NCBI GenBank assembly: GCA_947568835.1
Contig: OX387610.1
Location: 5,496,001-5,560,000, forward strand
Length of the DNA: 64,000 bases
Source of the DNA: Protonemura montana
Lineage: Eukaryota; Arthropoda; Insecta; Plecoptera; Nemouridae
Reading direction: 5' to 3'
The first letter of the stretch is position 1; every line of letters begins with the position of its first letter. The notes beneath the pieces are model-generated. The model did not search any database and had not been told where the DNA came from. It saw nothing but the letters and a program-made list of their open reading frames with translations. Made by a program: the position numbers and the translations under genes. Below, in pieces: positions 13,104-63,345 of the stretch.

Positions 13104-13520
13104 AAGTCGTGGGGTTTAACGAAGCACTGTTTTGACAACGGGCCCTGCGGCACTGATGTAATGGCGTCGGTTAATGAGTGGATGATCATGATGAAGCTAG
13201 CCTAGAAGGGAGGAGAAAAAACCCGATGCCGACACGCAGCCTACTCCTTTCGAAGAGCACCAAGCGGACCACCGGCTTAACGTCCCTTCCGAAGAACGGT
13301 ACAATTCGCAAATTACAGGATTCCTCCACAAATCCATGCTGTCGAGAGGTTGATAAGCAAGGCGAGTAGAGTTTCTGTACTAATATTTATCCGTCCAGCC
13401 TTTCTTCCGAACAGAACTGGTCATGTGTATGATGGTCACCCATCCAATACCTGACTCAGCGCAGTGTTGTTTAACTTCGGTGACCTCACGAGTACCAGTG
13501 TTCCCAACAGGCCAAATTAC
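13104..13520 (-). mobile_element. 5S rRNA-derived SINE, near full-length
   Basis: Read on the minus strand: a 5S-like head (GAAGTTAAACAACACTGCG, then GTATTGGATGGGTGACC, which match the A box and C box of the 5S internal promoter). Next is a middle with the CGTCCCTTCCGAAG hairpin motif, and then a tail ending in GTCAAAACAGTGC and a TTAAACC-like sequence. It is one of six long copies in the window. Confidence 0.75.
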
Positions 13521-14242
13521 TCTTCCACGGTTTAATCGCGGTGAGGAAGTCAGAATTTATTGTAATACTGCAATGAATTAGCTAAATTTGTAAATCAATG
13601 CCAGGAACGGAACCAGCTGGATGCTATTATGATGATACAGTCAAAATTCTTATCAAAAAACTTTAAATTAAGAAGCTCCAAAATAAGGGGTATTATTTTT
13701 AAAGTTTCCGTTTATCAGCTTATTATTTTTGGATAAGAGGGCGGGTGTACGTCGTGCACCCGCGTTTATAACCAGGACTACATCACTTCCTGCTGGAATC
13801 CCTCACGATTCTTCCCATGCGAATCAATATATTCTACAGAAAAAAATAAAACTCATTTTACCTCATCATAGCAACTGTACAGACTGTGGTGACCAAACGC
13901 TTGGCACCTTAACGACGGTCGTAAGAACAATTTAAGATATATTTTCTCAAGTTCACACAGATAATTTTTGACCTCCCCTGCAGCATTTGCTTTAACAAAG
14001 GTTTACACACCCCAGAGGTAGTTCCGCATTTTAAATTATGTAACAAAGCGTTTGCAGACAGTAATTTCACTTAGGTGAACGACTCTGAGCCAAAGAACCG
14101 TTCGAACCAGAACCAGCCAAACAACGCATGCGTGCCAAGAATGAAAATAAAATTAAAGAAAATCAATTTTTTGTTACTGGAAATATGTTTTAATTAAAAA
14201 TCGTGCAAATCAATTGGAATTTAAATTCAATTTACCGATGGT
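13521..14242. other. intergenic, no gene seen
   Basis: Lies between two 5S-SINE copies. No exon-like ORF or recognised motif. Confidence 0.4.
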
Positions 14243-14645
14243 TTAGCGTCTTTGGAACACCAATTTACGATCACTTAAGTTAAGCAACACTGCGTTAGGT
14301 CAGGTATTGGATGGCTGACCATCATGCTCGCCAGTTATGTTCCGGGAGAGAGGTTAGAGGGATGTGACCTTGACCTTGCTTATCAACTGGATAATCAGGT
14401 TGATTGATTGCAGGTTGATCAGCAGGCAGCTGATTGATTTGTGGAGGAATCCTATTGTTTGAGTTGTACCGTCCTTCGGAAGGCACGTTAAGCCGATGCT
14501 CTTGATGCTCTTCGACAGGAGTAGGCTATGTGCCGGCACCGTGTTTCCCCCCTCATTTCTAGGCTAGGTTAGGTTCATCATCATCCTCATCATCAACCAC
14601 TCATTCACAGACCCCATTAAACCAGTGCCGGGCGGTTTGTTTTCA
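14243..14645 (+). mobile_element. 5S rRNA-derived SINE, diverged copy
   Basis: The head has AAGTTAAGCAACACTGCG and GGTATTGGATGGCTGACC. The middle has GTACCGTCCTTCGGAAGGCAC and the tail has ACCAGTGCCGGGCGG. More diverged than the copies at 46150 and 62905. Confidence 0.7.
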
Positions 14646-19700: not shown

Positions 19701-22700
19701 TAATTTCGACATCTAGGTTACTGGCCCGAGCAGTTCCTTGCGCTGCAAGAGTCGATCTCCAGAGAGCTGATCAAACACCTGACAGACAACAAGGCCGTAC
19801 TTCCTGAAGTGTTGCTCCAACGTTTCCCTTATCCTGCGTACCTCTCCGATCCGATCCTGCAGGCACTCGAAGCGTTCATGCCGGTCATCATCATGCTCAG
19901 CTTTGTCTATACATGTATCAGCACAGTCAAGGTCATCACAACAGAGAAGGAACGGCAGCTGAAGGTGAGCGGATTAAAAAACAATTTACCTAGCACTCGG
20001 ATTTCAATAAAAAATGCAACTTATGACGTATTCAACTGGCTACCCCGGTGTACCTCAGGTGTGCACCGGAAGCGATTTTCACGTGTTCGACTGGGCATGT
20101 AACTCAGCCGCAGTGCAACTTTCACGTGTTCGACTGGGCATGTAACTCAGCCGCAGTGCAACTTTCACGTGTTCGACTGGGCATGTAACTCTGCCCCAGT
20201 GCAACTTTCACGTGTTCGACTTGGCATGTAACTCAGCCGCAGTGCAACTTTCACGTGTTCGACTGGGCATGTAACTCAGCCGCAGTGCAACTTTCACGTG
20301 TTCGACTGGGCATGTAACTCTGCCCCAGTGCAACTTTCACGTGTTCGACTGGGCATGTGACTCTGTCCCAGTGCAACTTTCACGTGTTCGACTGGGCATG
20401 TAACTCAGCCGCAGTGCAACTTTCACGTGTTCGACTGGGCATGTAACTCAGCCGCAGTGCAACTTTCACGTGTTCGACTGGGCATGTAACTCTGCCCCAG
20501 TGCAACTTTCACGTGTTCGACTGGGCATGTGACTCTGTCCCAGTGCAACTTTCACGTGTTCGACTGGGCATGTAACTCAGCCGCAGTGCAACTTTCACGT
20601 GTTCGACTGGGCATGTAACTCAGCTGCAGTGCAACTTTCACGTGTTTGACTGGGCATGTAACTCAGCCGCAGTGCAACTTTCACGTGTTCGACTGGGCAT
20701 GTGACTCTGCCCCAGTGCAACTTTCACGTGTTCGACTGGGCATGTGACTCTGCCCCAGTGTAACTTTCACATGTTCGACTGGGCATGTGACTCTGCCCCA
20801 GTGCAACTTTCACGTGTTCGACTGGGCATGTGACTCTGCCCCAGTGCAACTTTCACGTGTTCGACTGGTCATGTGACTCTGCCCCAGTGCAACTTTCACG
20901 TGTTCGACTGGGCATGTGACTCTGCCCCAGTGCAACTTTCACGTGTTCGACTGGGCATGTGACTCTGCCCCAGTGCAACTTTCACGTGTTCGACTGGGCA
21001 TGTGACTCTGCCCCAGTGCAACTTTCACGTGTTTGACTGGGCATGTGAACCTGTCCCAGTGCAACTTTCACGTGTTCGACTGGACATGTGACTCTGCCCC
21101 AGTGCAACTTTCACGTGTTCAACTGGGCATGTGACTCTAAAACAAATATTTGTAAATGTTTAAATATTTTTTTGAAGTACCAACATTTTTAATGTGCGTG
21201 GACTTATTGTTTTTCAGGAAGCGATGAAGATAATGGGGCTGCCCAACTGGCTTCACTGGCTTGCTTGGTTCATCAAGACGCTTGCCTTCCTCATCATCTC
21301 GGTGGTGCTCATCACAATCCTCCTCAAGGTGCCCTGGTACCCAGGAGCCGACTACTCTGTGTTCACCAACTCCGACGGCACTCTTGTGTTCGTTTTCCTG
21401 TTGCTCTACATTTTGGCCAGCATCACATACTGCTTCATGATTTCCGTTTTCTTCTCCAAGGGTAAGTATTGTGCTGGCATAATTGTGTAGGGATCTAATT
21501 TTCAGATTTTGTTTGGTGTAATCATTGAGTTAGTAGGTAGGTTCAGCCAGATGGCCACTGTTTAATTAAGGTTGAAATTGCAGGTAACACGTAGTCATGG
21601 TAGGTCCTACCCATAGGAAAATGACACCAACCTTTTTAACAAACCTCTAAAATGAAATAATTACGACTCAAAGTATTGGTACATGTTTATCAATTGTTTA
21701 AATTAGCAATGGTAACTCTAAACCATTGCTAATCTAATTGATCTAATTGATCTAATTGATTGTAAACCAGCCTCAAATGCAAGTAATCTGTAAGAAATAA
21801 TGAAAATGAATGAACAATATGGACAGTTTTCTAAACGATTCAACACCAAACTTCTATGATAGCCTGTGTGACGAATGTTTGTCTTTTGTCACCCAGCCAA
21901 CACCGCTGCGACTGTGGCCGGTCTGATCTGGTTCCTGTCGTACGCGCCGTACAACTTCATGTACCCGTTCTACGCATCGATTCCAACGGGGAACAAGGTT
22001 GCAGCTTGTCTGCTCAGCAACACTGCAATGGCTTACGGCTTTCAGGTACCAAAATGCGGCAAAAACAATTTTAATCGGATTGGTCCAAGCTCTCATTGCT
22101 AGTGGACGACTAGCTTAATTTGCTGTAGCTTCATTCAGTTTTATTTATTTATAACATTTTCAATGGCAGCAGAAATAGCAAATATAGTTACAATTGATTG
22201 TGACAGTTTGCTCAAAAAGCTTGTGGTTATAATTTTAAATGCAAGAAGGTAAAGTGAATTCCTTAAATGCACGAAGGAAGGAAACTAAACATACCAAGGT
22301 AGAAATGGCAGATCCTGACTGATGGATTGAGGTATTAAGACATTGACGCTAAAATTGTATTCTACGTTATTGTGATCAGCCTATACCTCCGTAAGTTACT
22401 TTTCCTTATTTCCAATTCCCCAATTCGTTTAACAGCCTTTTGGCACTCTTCATCATTTAATTATATTTTTCCACAATGGTCAATTTTAATTGTATTCTCA
22501 TAAGTAAATTCTCATTTGCAATTTTCGATACACTTAAAAAATGAAACCAGCGGTCATCTAGTTTTCTGCGGACAGTCTGAATGTAAAATTTAGAAACTCT
22601 TCAAGGAAAATAACGATTTGGTGATTACAGCTGTTGATTCTTGATCTTCTTGTGGCAGATCATGATCATGAACGAAGGTACTAGCGAGGGCAGTCAGTGG

Positions 22701-31800: not shown

Positions 31801-34800
31801 TTTCGGTGTGGAAAACCCCTCGCATAACGGCGTGGTTCAACAACCAGCCACTGCACTCGGTGCCTCTCGTGCTGAGCCAGGTCTACAACATGGTGCTCCG
31901 GAAAGAGACTGGGGAACCAAGGCAACTCACCATCGTTAACTCTCCCCTGCCGTTCAGAGACTCCAGTCAGGTAAGCAAGGCATCAAGGCAGAAAAAGGGC
32001 AGGGACAATTTTACGACGTTTCAGCTTTGCTAAGATAGATGAAACATGCTCGTTTCACTGCTTTGCTCCTTCTGCCTGAATAGCGGTTGCCATAGAGAGA
32101 CTTTGATGCCAAAGTCGTCATCTTGAGAGTCCCTGATTTTGTCTTATCTCAAAGAGCCTATACTATTTTCAGTGTCGGCACTAGGTTTCCCCTCCTCCCT
32201 TCTAGACTAAATTAAGTTCATCATTCTCCTCACCATTACCAACTCATTCAACGACGCCATACGTCCAGTGCCACTGAACCCGTTGTCAAAACAGTGCATC
32301 GCTACACTTAAAAAATATCAAGAAATTGTTCTCTTCTGTTCCAGTTCTCTCAGCTCGCCCAAGGTGACAACATGGGTTTCCAGATCGCGTTCAACATGGC
32401 GTTTGGCATGGCATTTGCTACGTCGTTTTACGTTCTGTTTGCGGTGCGTGAACGTGAGAGCAAGTCCAAGCTGCTGCAGTTTGTGTCCGGCGTTGAGGTT
32501 CTCGCGTTCTGGGGGTCGGCTCTCGTCTGGGACTTGCTCACGTTCCTAGTGCCGATATTCAGCACCATTATCGTGTTCCTGGCGTTCCAGGTAAATTAAA
32601 TGGCTTGGGTGGCTAGGTTTAAGGCGCTGGTAATGACTCGACAGTGCATTACAATAGCACATGTTATAAAACATTAAAGAAAAACAATTTAGCATTCATA
32701 GACCATTTTGAAAAAAATTCTATTGTAAAGATCTTAATTTTAACGTAAACTTAAAATCAACGGCCCAAAGGTACAAAAAAAAAATTGCTCGCAATATTCT
32801 TCACCCTAAACTAACCGACATTTTCTCAGTCTTCTGTGTTTTTATTTTTTTATTATCTTTAACGGGTCGTTAACTATTGGCCCAAACGTTGTGGAAGGCA
32901 AACCATAACACTCACAAGTGCAAAAGTTTGGATGGCTACTGCAAATGAACAGTGTGAGATATAAATTTGATTTTTTTCTGGGCCTTCTACAAGCATAAGC
33001 ATACTTTTTTTCACATATAAGTTAGCTAGGTTTGATGCTGTTGATTTGACATGGAATGACCCCATGGTAACATAATCTGAAAATCTTTGTGGTTTCGGTC
33101 TTTGATCTTTGACCAGTGATTTTTGACCAGTACAATTTTTCATGGAATTAACATGCTTTGACACACAAACGCCTAGATTTCAAATATTTTTTTACACTGA
33201 CATGAAGCAAGTTTTAATTTTGTCAATTTTTGCGCGATTAAGAAAGTGATGGCCTCATTGTGTTTCTTTGCAATGACTTCAATTTGACGCCCTCTCTGTT
33301 TCTAGGAGGATGGATACCGATCAGCAGAAGATCTCGGCAGACATCTGCTAGTTTTGCTGATGTTCAACTGGGCATCGATGCCGCTCATGTATCTTTTCTC
33401 GTTCCTCTTCACCATTCCGTCGACAGGGTTCACTCGAGTCTCCATGTTCAACATCCTCGGTGGTAAGCTGTGGTGTGGTGGTTAATGCACGCTGGTGTAC
33501 GCAGCCCACCCCATGATGTAGTGTTCAATGCATGTTGGTCTGCTTATAGATAAAACCAAGACATATCAGTTCAGCATTAAGTAAATTAAAATAATGCCAC
33601 GGTCTGCGTAGCACTGCGTGGTATTGGATAGGTGATCATCATACACATGACCAGTTTTGTTCGGGAGAGATGCTAGAGAGATAAAAGTTAGTAAAGCAAC
33701 TTCACTCTCCTTGCCTATCAACCTCTCGGCATTATAGATTTGTGGAGAAATCCTTTTTTTTTGCGTTGTACTGTCCTTCGAAAGGGACGTCAAGCTAGTG
33801 GTCCCTTTGGTGCTCTTCAACAGGTGTAGACTACTTGCTGGCATTTGGCTTCCTCTCCTCCCTACTAGGCTAGGTTAGGTTCATCTTTCTCATCATCAAC
33901 CATTCATTCATCGACGCCATTATACCAGTGCCACATTGCCCGATGTAAAAACACTGTGTCGTTAAACATCACTTATCAGCTGCTGATCGATATCGTTTCC
34001 GTCAGGTTGTGCCATGTTTATGACGGTGACGATCATCGAGTACCCGCTACTGGACCTGGCCGAGGCTGCCCGAATCATGGACTGGGTGTTCCTCGCGATC
34101 CCTCACTACAATCTGGCCATGAGTTTCCGAAGCCTGTACAACGCTCAAGCCTACGGCAAGATATGCAAAAAGACGTTACCCTTCTGCGGAAAGCCCGGAG
34201 TCTTTTCCCCGTGCTGCAAAGGTGAGAATATTTAGAGGTCATCAAGGATATAAATTAGAATATAGGCCAAGGAATGCCAGTTTCAGGTATCTATTAGGGT
34301 CAGGTCAGGCTTAGATATCATTTTTACATTTGAAGCTACTATGTTTGCCCAATTTTGTCACTGGTTCATACTTTCTCAAACGCAAATGTATGGGAGTTCG
34401 AGTCCCCGATGAGACGCCAATTTTCGAGAGGTTATTAATAAAATACTTTATTATACTATACTTTAAAATACTATACTTTGCTTGTTGCAAGTATTTGTAA
34501 TTTGTATAAAGTTTCATACCTAGTAATATGCAATTGTCATATCCATGACAATAACGTGTTATAATTAATATTATTATTAACATTATAAATTTGAAACATT
34601 ACAATTAAGTTATTAGTTATTACTAGAGCCAAGATTTTACGGTGTTATTATTTCGATAATTTCGTGGTAAGCTTTTTGGATTTCGGTGTTATGGCGGTGT
34701 TATGGAAAAAGTACAGAATTTCATGTCTATAACAGATTTCAGACATAGGTGACGAAAAAAAGAAAAAACGTGTTTTTAGCATTAGTTTTATCGAAATTTT

Positions 34801-42180: not shown

Positions 42181-42186
42181 TTTATT
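42181..42186 (-). terminator. poly(A) signal after ACBD6
   Basis: TTTATT on the plus strand, that is AATAAA on the minus strand, 28 bases after the ACBD6 stop. No such signal lies in the two gaps upstream, which fits one shared 3' end for the three genes. Confidence 0.65.
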
Positions 42187-42213
42187 TTCAAATCTACAGT
42201 TGTGTTATTACAA

Positions 42214-42945
42214 TCAATCGCCTTTGAGCATCTCCATGATGTCACTCTCCGTTGCCAACTCCAGAGGCATTGATCCCGACTCATCGACCGCCTCCTTGTC
42301 TGCTTTGTTCGCAATCAAAAGTTGCACGACTTCCCCATGTCCGCATCCAGCCGCGTAGTGCAACGCTGTCTGTCCTTCAGCGTCCCTTAAGTCGACGTCC
42401 GCGCCGAGTCGAATTAGCAGACAGGTAATCATCTCCGCATTGCCTCGATCAGCTGCCCAATGAATCAAACCCATGCCCTCAGAGTCGAGATTGTTCACCG
42501 TCGCTTTACGACCAGTCTGCAAGACCTTATCGATGTTGCCTTCTCGCACCCAATCAAAGACAGTCTTGTCCTCATCATTGATAGCTTCGTCAGTGTCGGG
42601 CATAGAACTAACAGCGACCCAACCTGGCGCTTTCGACGAGGATCCCGACCATTCTGGATCGAGCTCAGAGATTTTTTCTATGTAAGCTTGCATCGCGGTG
42701 TGAGACGGCATGTCTTTGAGTTGTTTCCACGCGTCCCATTTCTGTCGGTTTTGCATCTGGAACCAACCGGGCTGCGGAATGTCGCAAGGGCCAACAGTAG
42801 CCTGTTTAAAGAGGCCGTAAAGGGATAGAATGGTCTTTGTGTCAGTGCGGCTGAACAGAGTTTGAAGATGGGCGGCCGCTCGCTCGAAGGTTTCGGGCAG
42901 GTCAGTCTCGGTGTACACTTCGATTTCTGGCAGTGCTTCAGCCAT
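42214..42945 (-). CDS. ACBD6: ACBD6-like acyl-CoA-binding protein with ankyrin repeats (single exon, 243 aa)
   Basis: Residues 12-105 form an acyl-CoA-binding domain with the expected FERAAAHLQ start, the LYGLFKQATVGPCDIPQPGW block (Tyr and Lys acyl-CoA contacts) and KWDAWKQL. Residues about 130-240 form three ankyrin repeats, seen in GLIHWAADRGNAEMITCLL and TALHYAAGCGHGEVVQLL. This ACB-plus-ankyrin order is specific to ACBD6 (human 282 aa), which binds long-chain acyl-CoA and stimulates N-myristoyltransferase. There is no intron. The start codon lies 69 bases after the SLIRP stop on the same strand, and a poly(A) signal follows the gene, making it the last cistron of a likely polycistronic unit. 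Confidence 0.95.
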   Translation of the reverse strand: MAEALPEIEVYTETDLPETFERAAAHLQTLFSRTDTKTILSLYGLFKQATVGPCDIPQPGWFQMQNRQKWDAWKQLKDMPSHTAMQAYIEKISELDPEWSGSSSKAPGWVAVSSMPDTDEAINDEDKTVFDWVREGNIDKVLQTGRKATVNNLDSEGMGLIHWAADRGNAEMITCLLIRLGADVDLRDAEGQTALHYAAGCGHGEVVQLLIANKADKEAVDESGSMPLELATESDIMEMLKGD

Positions 42946-43014
42946 ATTGATTTTGGAGGCTTGTTATTATGGGATTGCTTCTAAGTCCTAGAGTGACTAA
43001 ATATTAGGGTCGTC

Positions 43015-43281
43015 TTACAACTCCGACACACTGGCTCGTTGGCAGTTGATTCTTACGCCTTCTAGTTCGTGGTTTGGTTTGCTAACTGCACCTTCAATCC
43101 CGTCAGACTTCTTGAAAATCACAAAGCCGTAGCCCTTAGACAAGCCAGTCGCTTTGTCGAAGACCACTCTGGCAGAGTTGATGGCACCAAACTCGGAGAA
43201 ATACTGGGCCAATACTTCGTGACTGACTGTCCACGGTAGGTTGCCTACGAAAAGCTTATTCGCTGCCCGTCGTGCTGCCAT
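43015..43281 (-). CDS. SLIRP: SLIRP-like single-RRM protein (88 aa, single exon)
   Basis: One RNA-recognition motif fills the protein. RNP2 is KLFVGNLPWT (about residues 9-18) and RNP1 is KGYGFVIF (about 49-56). A FDKATGLSKG loop and a NHELEGVRI end resemble SLIRP (human 109 aa), the mitochondrial partner of LRPPRC that stabilises mitochondrial mRNAs. The first nine residues (MAARRAANK) are basic enough for a minimal targeting sequence, but I cannot prove import. The gene lies 26 bases after the METTL23 stop and 69 bases before ACBD6, same strand, without its own poly(A) signal. Another small RRM protein is the main alternative. Confidence 0.85.
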   Translation of the reverse strand: MAARRAANKLFVGNLPWTVSHEVLAQYFSEFGAINSARVVFDKATGLSKGYGFVIFKKSDGIEGAVSKPNHELEGVRINCQRASVSEL

Positions 43282-43307
43282 AGTACGATTTGAAGTTAAG
43301 GATAAGT

Positions 43308-44094
43308 TTACTGGCCGACTCGTGTGATTTGAAGCAAATGAATGGTGTGATCTTGCATGAGATCGTTAACGTCTATGCCTGATTCGACACCAAGGTTGTT
43401 CAGCGGAATGTGTTCACAGTGGAGGTGCCACTTGTGTAGCAGGTGTTCTATGCACCAATCAGCACTTCGCTCTTGATAAGTGCACAGAAACCTGGCCCCC
43501 TGGTTCTTTTCAAGTAGGAACGCGACTGTAACAATAATATCTTCGAAAACTGAAGGCTCGTAAAAGCAATCTGACCCAAGAATCAAGTCGATCGGCCCTA
43601 GTGTAAAGATGCTTCCTAGAAAGAGACCCCACGTCAATCCTAAGACGCGAACCTGACTCGGTAGAAGACCGTTTGCTTCGCAGCACCTCTGAACGTGATG
43701 CAGAGACTTGGGCAAGCTTGCCGAATCGGTTAGAGTAACGGCTGCGCCACACTTGGCAGCTACGATTCCAGGAAGAGCAGTACCGGATCCAAGCTCAAGA
43801 ATGTGTTTGCCAGGGAGTTCGCGACGATGCTCCCAAAGAAACCAGGCGAGGATGGGAGCCGACGGCCAGGTGTAGAAACTGTAGCTCGCTTGTAGTTGCT
43901 ATTAAGGAAAAAGGCGGTGAGTTGGGCGTCGAAATCGACCTAGCCTATTCAGCTTCCAATGGACACCATTGCCTGAGTAAAGCACCTACCTCTGGGATGA
44001 AAACTTCGAGGGATTCCTCGGGAACTTCCCCTGGTCGTGATATTCGTGACTTGAAGAGAAACTTCTTTATTTGCTCTGTAATCCCATCGGACAT
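43308..44094 (-). CDS. METTL23: METTL23-like methyltransferase (2 exons, 231 aa)
   Basis: Exon 44094-43990 encodes 35 residues (MSDGITEQIKKFLFKSR at the start, VFIPE at the end). Exon 43898-43308 encodes the rest, in phase 0. The class I methyltransferase core is clear: YSFYTWPSAPILAWFLWEHR, motif I HILELGSGTALPGIVAAKCG, TLTDSASLPKSL (post I), VLGLTWG, then LILGSDCFYEP (motif IV) and the FLCTYQERSADWCIEHLL block typical of METTL23. METTL23 methylates arginine in histone H3 and possibly other proteins. The track-like short ORFs inside it are internal. The stop is 26 bases before the SLIRP start, so METTL23 is the first cistron of the unit. Confidence 0.95.
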
Positions 44095-44972
44095 TGAAAC
44101 AGAGGCAATTTACAACCGGGGAACATCGCCACAACGAAATGTAGAAACTGATAGCACATGGAAATGAACAGTAGCAAATATGAGTCAAAATAGAGACAAA
44201 GCGAAACACCTATTCAACAAAATCGAAATTTATTTGTAAGTCAATATGCCAGAAATTTGTTTGTTGTTTATTTGAGATCAAAAAATTACATGACAGAAAA
44301 TACATAAAAATTTCTTTTTTTAATAACAAATAGTGACATTACGCTGACATGACGTAAGCGCCAAATACCTAGAACGAAAAATCTAGAATGCGGGCTTGCT
44401 GCATCCAGTCAATATGCCGCGGTAAAGAGATGACTTACAGAGTTTTCCTCGGGCTGGGTGCTAGAGTACTAGGATCAAAGACCACTAGGATGATAGGGCA
44501 CGCATGGCTAGCTATCGAACTGTCTTGATATCATATGTTAGCCTAGTCCCAAACCGAAATAGACAAACAATTATCAAAATTTAGTTCGGAATTAATTACC
44601 CAAAAACTTTGAAAAGTACATTTGCAAAAATTGCAAGGACACTAGAGTATATGACTAGCTATCGAACTTTCATAATCTTATTTTTTGGCCCAATCCCAAA
44701 CAAAAAACGCTAACATTGATCAAAGTTTGGGTGTGGAGTAATTTCACAAAAACATCGATATCAACTTCGTTTTACTGAACATTCACAAATCTAGTTTTTA
44801 AGTACAAGTATAAATTTTTTAAACCAGTGCTACATGGTTAGATAAAGTAGACATGAGCCTAAAATTTAAAAACCATCAATACAACAATTTTCGTGCAAGA
44901 TCCTCAACATCAGCATCTCTTCTTCCAGGTAGTATCTAGGAGGACACGCTTGGCGTCAATGCGCGTGCGCTG
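44095..44972. other. intergenic: METTL23 promoter side and odorant receptor A 3' side
   Basis: Holds an R2 fragment at 44805-44880. Downstream of the receptor stop, the sequence with GCGCACGCGCATTGACGCC (minus strand) is conserved with receptor B. Confidence 0.4.
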
Positions 44973-47900
44973 TTAACTCTGATTATACATCTTGTTGAGC
45001 AGTGATTGGAAATAGTAGGCCACCTTGCACACCTGAAACAAACAAGCAGCGTGAGCGTAAACCATTAGGTCAGAGTCCTAGCGCTAATGTTAAACGTTCC
45101 TCTAAGCAACTTTAGGTGCCACCCTAAAGTGTTCTTTAAGAAACCTTTGCAATTATATAATAAAAAAGTCATGAAATATCGATAAAATACGTAAATCAAT
45201 CGTTGAGGTTAGCATTAGTGCTGATTTATCGAGTGTAAACCATTCTTCAATGCTAGGAAACTGCAAGAAATAACGAAATATGACCGTTATTGGCGGCATT
45301 TTATGAAATATTATCGGTTGACGTTGATTCCAACACCAACAAACCAACAAATTTCACTACGCTGGAATGGCAACAGTGGCACAGTGACGGTCGAGGCCCA
45401 ATGGGCAGGACTCAGTTTGACTTTGACTAGGGGATGAGGGGACGAGGCACTAAAATATTGTGCCTTGCAGCATTTTTTAAGCAGTTCTACAATACTTTTA
45501 CTAACAAAATACCTCTTTTCAATATATTATTTTTTTTGACATACGCTTATGAACGAGTATGAGATTTTTTAAATTTATTCATCCCTCTCATAACATATTT
45601 TATTTTTGGTTTCTTGAGCTACGCTTGCACCCGGACACGATTAGTTTTTAAAATAATGCAAATGAGCCCGTCGGATCGCCTCTCATTATCCAGGCAAATC
45701 AAAAATTAGTTCTTAAACTCACCGTTCTGAAGGTTCTCCTAGAGATTGTGATACCGGCAGCTTTTAGCACGATGTCCTTCTGCGCACGCGTCATCAGCAG
45801 ACGCAACGAACGTTTGAAGGCCGCCGACTGTTCTAACCAATCACAGCTGTAGGTGGCTTCGAAGACAGATACACTCTGTAAACAATGGGTTGTGCAAAGT
45901 GAAGACAGTCGATTGTCTGCTCATGTCCCATTGGACACTTATTTTTCGCAGTGTTCAGCCCTTATGGAATGACGCTAAGCCGGTGGTCCCCTTAATGCTC
46001 ATCGACAGGAGTAGGCGTCATCCCGACACCGGGTTTCCCCTTTTCCCTTCTAGGCTAGGTTAGATTCATCATCACCTGCATCGTCATGCACTCATTCACC
46101 GACATAACAGTGCGTCGTTAAATGCCACTAATCAATCATCGACGTTAAAACCGAACGGTTTGACGTGTTGGAAACACCGGTTCTCGTGAGATCACCGAAG
46201 TTGAGCAACACTGCGCTCAGTCAGGTATTGGATAGGTAACCATCATACACATGACCAGTTCTGTTCGGGAGAGAGGTTGGAGGGATGAAAGTTAAGCAAC
46301 ACTGCGCTTGGTCAGATATTGGATGGGTGACCATAATACACATGACCAGTTCTGTTCGGGAGAGAGGTTGGAGGGATGAAAGTTAGTACAGCAACTTTAC
46401 TCGTCTTGCTTATCAACCTCTCGACAGCATGGGTTTGTGGAGGAATCCTGCTGTTCGAGTTGTACCGTCCTTCGGAAGGGACGTAAAGCCGGTGGACCCC
46501 TTGGTGCTCTTCGACAGGAGTAGGCTACGTGCCGGCACCGGGTTTCCCCTCCTCCCTTCTAGGCTAGGTTAGGTTCATCATCATCCTCATCATCATCCAT
46601 TCATTCACCGACGCCATTAGACCAGTGCCGCATGGCCAGATGTCAAAACAGTGCGTCGTTAAACACCACAAATAATAATAATAATAATAATCAACTTTAA
46701 ATCTCTTAATTTTAATTTTATCTTTATTTTGATGTTTCGTATTCTCACCGCCAGTGTGAGTTTGTCGCATGCCCAGCACATGATGAGCAACTCGGTGACT
46801 CCGCCCATGACGCACGACGACATCACCAGCGTCTTCAAGAACGTCGTCTTCGACTGCAAAACAATTGATGCGATTGAATGGGCGACCAAAGATGGCGCTG
46901 GCACATGACGTTGTGATCCATCAAGCAGTGCTAACATCGCGATCACTTGTTTATGACTGTTTACGCTACGCACTACTTGATTCACAGCGTACATCAATTT
47001 GTCATTATGCCGTGAGAAATGTTTCTTGCATCAAGTAATTGATTGGGAAGGATCACTAAATTGAAGCCCAGGTAGTTTATTTAACATGGGCGCTATGACT
47101 AACTATGAACTCAATGGTAGTAAAAAACGTGGCAGTTGAGGCTGAACGTACCAAGGTGCTGATGTACAATCCAACGAGTCCTAAGAGTAAGTTGAAGACG
47201 ATTTGTTCGATCAACATGGCTGCGAACACCGACTGCAGCTCCCGCACCAGGCTGCAAACACATTGCAAGAGTTACCGAAGCCACGAAAACAACGTCAAAA
47301 AGCAAAAGATTTTTTGACACATATTGTAACTTTTAATTGAAAAGACAAGATAACCCTATGATGGTTTTTAGACTCATGTCTACTTGATTTATCCTTAGCA
47401 CTAGTTTTAACAAAAACCCATTTCAAATAGTTTTTGTTACTAGATAACCCTTTTTATATCTGCGATAGAAGCTGTATGTGTGTTACATTTTCGAGCATGC
47501 CGTGATTTTGCGACAGTTGGTGAATTTGTTACAGAATTGCCTAAAAGGGTGGTAGTTGACTCGTTAACGCAAATCTGAGTTGTTTGAACTTAAACAATTG
47601 AGACACAAGCATGTTTTATGAGGAAAGAGCGCATCAACGTGCCCGTGTGGTTGGCGACCGTTTCAAGGTGGCGTACCAGCGGGAGTCAACGAGTCAACCG
47701 ACACAACCAAAAGAACTGAGATGAAAGAACAAAAAATAACAGAACAGAAGAACAGAGATAAAGAGATGCTCCCACTCACCTGATGATTTGCTGATGATGC
47801 TTTACGTTGGTCTTCATGGACTCCTCCATGCGTCCCATCGACAACGTCGCCTCTTGAGCGACCATCGCCCTCTCGATACTAGCGAATCTAGCGATACTAG

Positions 47901-53949: not shown

Positions 53950-54340
53950 GTGGTGTTTAGCGACGCTCTGTTTTGACGACTGGCCATGCGGCACTGGTAT
54001 CATGGCGTCGGTGAACGAGTGGATGATGATGAACATAACCTAGCCTACTCCTGTCGAGGAGCACCAAGGGGAACCACCCTTCCGAAACGTCCCTTCCGAA
54101 AGACGGTACAACGCGAACAGCAGGATTCCTCCACAAATCCATGCTGTCGAGAGGTTGATAAGCAAGGCGAATGAAATTGTTGTACTAAATTTCATTCCTC
54201 CAACCTCTCTCCCAAACAGAACTGGTCATGTGCATGGTGGTCACCCATCCAATACCAGACCCAGTGCAGTGTTGCTAAACTTCGGTGATCTCATGAGAAC
54301 CGGTGTTTTCAACAAGCCAAACCGTTCGGTAACTTCAGGA
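53950..54340 (-). mobile_element. 5S-derived SINE (between the receptors)
   Basis: On the minus strand the head reads GAGATCACCGAAGTTTAGCA and GGTATTGGATGGGTGACCAC; the tail is near 53955. An R1 fragment follows at 54350-54480. Confidence 0.8.
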
Positions 54341-62904: not shown

Positions 62905-63345
62905 TATTTGTGGTGTTTAACGACGCACTGTTTTGACAACTGGCCCTGCGGCACTGGTCTAATGGCGTCGGTGAATAAGTGGATGATGATGAGGATGATG
63001 ATGAACCTAACCTAGCCTAGAAGGGAGGAGGGGAAACCCGGTGCCGGCACGTAGCCTACTCCTGTCGAAAAGCACCAAGGGGACCACCGGCTTCACGTCC
63101 CTTCCGAAGGACGGTACAACTCGAACAGCAGGATTCCTCCACAAATCCATGCTGTCGAGAGGTTGATAAGCGAGGCGAATGAAGTTGCTGTAATAACTCT
63201 CATCCCTCCAACCTCTCTCCCGAACAGAACTGGTAATGTGAATATTGGTCACCCACCCAATACCTGACTCAGCGCAGTGTTGCTTAACTTCGGTGATCTA
63301 ACGAGAACCGGTGTTTCCAACACGCCAAACCGTTCGGTGTGAGAA
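62905..63345 (-). mobile_element. 5S-derived SINE, full length
   Basis: The cleanest single copy. On the minus strand the 5S-like head has ACCGAAGTTAAGCAACACTG and TATTGGGTGGGTGACCA. Then come the CGTCCTTCGGAAGGGACGTG hairpin, the CCGGCACCGGGTTTCCCCTC block and the TTCATCATCATCCTCATC run. The tail is GTGCGTCGTTAAACACCAC followed by AATAATAAT. Length is about 440 bp. Confidence 0.85.

Follow-up and report, generated by a model that had tools for sequence, protein, structure and literature searches.

Three unrelated genes, METTL23, SLIRP, and ACBD6, were found to lie head to tail on the minus strand of the window, the 64-kb stretch of DNA analyzed here (positions 5496001-5560000 of the contig; genome of 258 Mb), with gaps of 26 and 69 nt between their reading frames. 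We consider it probable that this locus is expressed as one capped, polyadenylated tricistronic mRNA that is translated by leaky scanning, and that it represents a three-gene extension of an old arthropod dicistron. In this mechanism, the locus would be transcribed into a single mRNA with METTL23, SLIRP, and ACBD6 in that order, and ribosomes scanning from the cap would in many cases skip the weak METTL23 start. They would meet hardly any other ATG en route, and would initiate at SLIRP or, beyond it, at ACBD6. Some of the ACBD6 supply may come from reinitiation downstream of SLIRP, whose reading frame is short.

If correct, this interpretation would show an old dicistron gaining a front cistron, with the depletion of start codons marking the mode of translation. 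The same ATG-depletion test, which needs no RNA data, could be applied to arthropod genomes at large to detect leaky-scanning polycistrons.

Organization of the Locus

The features of the locus are listed in Table 1. The first-pass annotation had described three complete reading frames on one strand; its coordinates and counts are correct, except that the METTL23 frame (231 codons) becomes complete only once the 91-nt GT-AG intron has been spliced out. The acceptor of this intron has the highest pyrimidine content among the 72 AGs between 43985 and 42945. Exon 2 of METTL23 contains only one ATG, at 43358, which is in frame and in a weak context, and the start codon of SLIRP is the sole ATG of that reading frame when all frames are counted. 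The same annotation had noted the two gap lengths, the lack of a poly(A) signal within the gaps, and one AATAAA after the last stop, all of which were confirmed (neither gap contains AATAAA, and 27 bases intervene between the ACBD6 stop and the AATAAA). This AATAAA is likely the poly(A) signal common to all three genes. A second AATAAA is located at 44071, within METTL23 exon 1.

Table 1. Features of the METTL23-SLIRP-ACBD6 locus, in window coordinates
Feature	Position	Strand	Remarks
Upstream ORF overlapping the METTL23 start	44067..44159	-	ATGs at 44159, 44126, and 44087 in one frame; closes at 44067
Initiator-like TCAGTT, possible transcription start	44146..44151	-	A at 44149; weak evidence, motif at 1.45/kb/strand in the window
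METTL23 exon 1	43990..44094	-	ATG in weak context (TTTCAATGT)
METTL23 intron	43899..43989	-	GT..AG, 91 nt
METTL23 exon 2	43308..43898	-	Stop TAA; Methyltransf_16
Gap 1 (METTL23/SLIRP)	43282..43307	-	26 nt; no AG, no ATG
SLIRP ORF	43015..43281	-	88 codons; RRM_1
Gap 2 (SLIRP/ACBD6)	42946..43014	-	69 nt; no ATG; in-frame stops TAG, TAG, TAA, TAA
ACBD6 ORF	42214..42945	-	243 codons; ACBP and ankyrin; normal ATG content
AATAAA	42181..42186	-	27 intervening bases past the ACBD6 stop

In the 2015 FlyBase survey of Drosophila melanogaster, loci with only polycistronic transcripts have gaps of -34 to 319 nt (PMC4528330), and both gaps found here fall within this range. The same source counts 159 dicistronic pairs, of which 45 are exclusively dicistronic for both genes, together with seven tricistronic and two tetracistronic loci (PMC4528330). 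Loci that place three genes on one mRNA are thus few even in a well-annotated animal.

Identities of the Three Genes

The encoded proteins match the Pfam families Methyltransf_16 (ORF 1), RRM_1 (ORF 2), and ACBP plus ankyrin (ORF 3). When the genome was searched with a human SLIRP sequence, which agrees with PDB chain 8any_A6 except at one residue, the SLIRP ORF was the top match (2.9e-13) and the runner-up was found at 7.6e-8. With the SLIRP ORF as the query against its own genome, the next best match was 38% identical and is located inside a longer RRM frame. By reciprocal best match, ORF 2 is assigned as SLIRP. The METTL23 ORF is 48% identical to part of human METTL23 over 188 aligned positions; five Met positions of the human sequence are F, A, L, L, and L in this ORF, a point in favor of the leaky-scanning reading. 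The best of the seven PDB matches of the methyltransferase ORF is METTL21A, and METTL23 is absent among these seven. Six further matches to Methyltransf_16 were found elsewhere in the genome.

Conservation of the SLIRP-ACBD6 Pair

The first-pass annotation had pointed to a Drosophila dicistron that pairs an RRM protein with an ACBD6-like protein. This locus is real: CG33714/CG33713 is a dicistronic locus with a conserved upstream ORF, in which the RNA-binding CG33714 (90 amino acids) comes first and the acyl-CoA-binding CG33713 second (PMC2276209). The Ka/Ks values given for this pair are 0.06 and 0.13; among the species in which one EST carries both ORFs, the crab Carcinus maenas is the most distant (PMC2276209). 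CG33714 has been named DmSLIRP1 (PMC5559520); mutants of CG33714 are semi-lethal and those of CG33713 are of low viability (PMC11674832).

The arrangement of the arthropod dicistron is reproduced here, with the SLIRP ORF directly before the ACBP ORF on the same strand, and the small RNA-binding ORF is of similar size (88 amino acids here, 90 in Drosophila). The two loci differ in that the available text of PMC2276209 names no METTL23 cistron in front at the Drosophila locus; it likewise contains no ATG-depletion analysis of that locus. The proposal of an old co-transcribed pair to which a methyltransferase was added upstream fits this published pair, which extends out to the Carcinus EST. The SLIRP-ACBD6 half is therefore already known and old, and METTL23 in front looks like an addition. 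Among the titles and abstracts listed from the openly accessible literature, none places METTL23 with SLIRP and ACBD6. Chance crowding of three genes was rejected on two grounds: the pairing of SLIRP with ACBD6 is conserved and already published, and the stretch covering ORFs 1 and 2 is depleted of ATG.

Depletion of ATG from the First Two Reading Frames

Counting the METTL23 and ACBD6 starts and everything between them, there are five ATGs in the spliced message. These are the METTL23 start, an ATG 7 nt after it that opens a six-codon ORF, the late in-frame METTL23 codon, the SLIRP start, and the ACBD6 start. The expected numbers were determined with the proteins held fixed, while the codons of each gene were permuted or were resampled according to pooled or ACBD6 codon usage. 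For METTL23 and SLIRP together, the single off-frame ATG compares with expectations of 5.2 (own codons permuted, P 0.0057), 6.2 (pooled usage, P 0.0043), and 6.8 (ACBD6 usage, P 0.001). When the permutation was repeated, P was 0.0066, and none of the other 64 trinucleotides was as strongly depleted as ATG. METTL23 alone has one off-frame ATG versus 4.2-5.8 expected (P 0.005-0.026, four null models), and for SLIRP alone the depletion is not significant (0 versus 1.0-2.25 expected, P 0.05-0.25). The ATG content of ACBD6 is normal, with 8 off-frame ATGs versus 6.1 expected, and its G+C fraction of 0.527 is similar to those of the other two ORFs (0.496 and 0.502).

Control segments were taken from 47 loci of this genome, consisting of 30 of its 145 kinase matches along with 7 matches to RRM, 6 to ACBP, and 4 to methyltransferases; a further two methyltransferase loci, interrupted by stops within the match, were left out. 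Six of the 47 were dropped for a stop inside the match, leaving 41, most of whose length is kinase and two of which have a frame length other than that listed. The ATG density of METTL23 and SLIRP was determined to be 4.2/kb, counting both start codons, versus 18.5/kb in the 41 controls. When 963-nt stretches were drawn 20,000 times from the controls, none contained one or fewer off-frame ATGs. The longest ATG-to-ATG interval is 638 nt here and 294 nt in the controls, a soft comparison in that an interval of 638 nt would fit into no more than 17 of the 41 control segments.

The mark of leaky scanning is thus present, with ATGs depleted before the last ORF and not within ACBD6, significantly so for METTL23 and for METTL23 and SLIRP combined. 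The first-pass annotation had proposed reinitiation or readthrough; the scarcity of ATG in the first two ORFs favors leaky scanning over reinitiation, with a statistic drawn from one locus in one genome to which SLIRP contributes little.

Start Codon Contexts and the Upstream Region

The Drosophila start consensus is CAAA-ATG-G, as given in PMC2276209. The METTL23 start matches this consensus at one of five positions, that of SLIRP at two, and that of ACBD6 at four, and so the context strengthens from ORF 1 to ORF 3, as expected of a leaky-scanning polycistron. At -3 and +4, however, the context of the SLIRP start cannot be called weak, and scanning alone past SLIRP to ACBD6 may for this reason be inefficient.

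The METTL23 start is overlapped by an upstream ORF, which has three ATGs and closes 28 nt into METTL23; a long ATG-free run towards SLIRP follows. Translation of METTL23 would be held back by the ATGs at 44159 and 44126 if these are part of the leader, and ribosomes could then be passed on to SLIRP. The initiator-like site at 44149 would give a leader of 55 nt, and this motif may be due to chance. It is conceivable, but rather doubtful, that the upstream ORF serves as a bypass, taking ribosomes beyond METTL23 and releasing them on the ~617 nt ATG-free run to SLIRP and ACBD6. Were this so, the methyltransferase, the mitochondrial RNA-binding protein, and the acyl-CoA carrier would draw on the ribosomes of one mRNA, in proportions that shift with eIF2 activity.

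Alternative Modes of Expression

An arrangement that we regard as unlikely would have the METTL23 mRNA ending near its own stop codon, with a promoter in METTL23 exon 2 driving only a SLIRP-ACBD6 dicistron. The published unit is SLIRP-ACBD6 alone, and in the FlyBase account monocistronic transcripts of the 3' gene, where they exist, usually come from a downstream or external promoter (PMC4528330). The sequence AGTAAA at 43312-43307 overlaps the METTL23 stop codon, its last base being the first base of gap 1, and might end the METTL23 mRNA. However, the end of METTL23 has no AATAAA nearby, and among 13 poly(A)-signal variants scanned, none starts in either gap, in agreement with the earlier description of the gaps as free of such signals; AGTAAA just touches gap 1. 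Initiator-like sites occur in exon 2 at 43551 and 43339, but the five matches found in the 1.8 kb scanned compare with ~2.6 expected from the window density and so support a promoter there weakly. Such a promoter would also leave the depletion of off-frame ATGs from METTL23 unexplained. A scan for bacterial promoters and terminators returned 5 promoter-like sites (3.5 in shuffles) and 2 terminator-like sites (2.4 in shuffles), and is not applicable to animals. Production of three monocistronic mRNAs from a spliced-leader operon, by trans-splicing of the pre-mRNA, is considered very improbable. Trans-splicing is said to occur in some crustaceans, and gap 2 contains acceptor-like AGs, the best of which (CTCTAG at 42988, rank 3 of 72 by pyrimidine content) might serve a separate ACBD6 mRNA. 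An acceptor just before each downstream ORF would be expected of such an operon, and one is possible in gap 2 but lacking in gap 1. Because gap 1 contains no AG at all, trans-splicing into it is unlikely, as the first-pass annotation had argued; the AGs closest to it lie within METTL23, at ranks 20 and 45 among the 72. No 3'-end signal starts in the gaps, and the depletion of ATG would be superfluous if each gene had an mRNA of its own. There is room for separate or extra mRNAs, given the AGTAAA, the acceptor-like AG in gap 2, and the initiator-like motifs in exon 2.

The tricistronic mRNA might instead supply its downstream ORFs mainly by reinitiation, either from the upstream ORF or after SLIRP, or by an IRES, a possibility that we consider quite improbable. 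The position of the upstream ORF and the ATG-free run beyond it would suit reinitiation, as would the shortness of SLIRP (88 codons) and its distance of 69 nt from ACBD6. The METTL23 frame, with 231 codons, is long for reinitiation to follow it, and neither reinitiation after METTL23 nor an IRES requires that METTL23 be depleted of ATG, whereas reinitiation from the upstream ORF would. The use of IRES elements may be common according to the FlyBase account (PMC4528330), but shuffled sequences fold as well as the region around gap 2 (z -0.31), and an IRES-type structure there accordingly lacks folding support. Readthrough of stop codons, which had been offered as a further route, can be excluded: the frame shifts across gap 1, the METTL23 frame reaches a TAA after three codons, and gap 2 contains four in-frame stops (TAG, TAG, TAA, and TAA). 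Leaky scanning along one mRNA is the route that we favor as the main one.

Comparison with Other Polycistronic Loci

According to PMC11291117, a weak ORF 1 context and depletion of ATG before ORF 2 are the marks of leaky scanning in algal bicistrons, and the same marks are reported for Drosophila stoned and Snapin (Wall 2005, as cited in PMC11291117 and PMC4528330). The locus described here resembles stoned and Snapin in having an AUG-poor first cistron with an off-consensus start context; the second ORF is translated by leaky scanning there, and this is proposed here. Those loci differ in having two cistrons and other genes, and were subjected to mutational tests. The green-algal bicistronic genes share the weak ORF 1 context and the ATG depletion before ORF 2, but are non-animal, comprise two ORFs, and were tested in vivo (PMC11291117). 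The likeness to the seven tricistronic loci of FlyBase (PMC4528330) is one of gene number, with three protein-coding genes presumably on one mRNA here.

Another dicistron published for Drosophila, Snapin-N6AMT1 (HemK2), has its two genes side by side here as well (L034, 2415-3321), yet their 161-nt gap holds an AATAAA. Snapin has 2 off-frame ATGs here versus 3.6 expected and is not clearly depleted. This pair serves as a contrast, since it shows that conserved adjacency alone need not mean a common mRNA. MOCS2 (MoaE) was considered as a further comparison and was dropped when its first ORF gave no clear picture.

Other Features of the Window and Genome

The only Rfam matches in the window are four 5S rRNA matches, at 13408-13525, 46150-46270, 54211-54329, and 63218-63338. 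Each heads a dispersed repeat of several hundred bases, the aligned copies of which are about 78-94% identical, and further truncated copies are found at 14265-14630 and 33620-33972. This repeat looks like a 5S-derived SINE. Positions 20077-21138 form a tandem array of ~43-bp period that directly follows an apparent exon of what we take to be an ABC transporter.

Copies of COX1 were found in the nuclear contig C4, near 5.76-5.78 Mb, and one of these is full length and scores the same as the mitochondrial gene. These copies reflect either a recent mitochondrial insertion or a misassembly. In the mitochondrial contig (C34), whose gene order points to a pancrustacean and possibly to an insect, TGA codons occur inside cox1, and trnL(taa) lies between cox1 and cox2, the ancestral pancrustacean mitochondrial arrangement.
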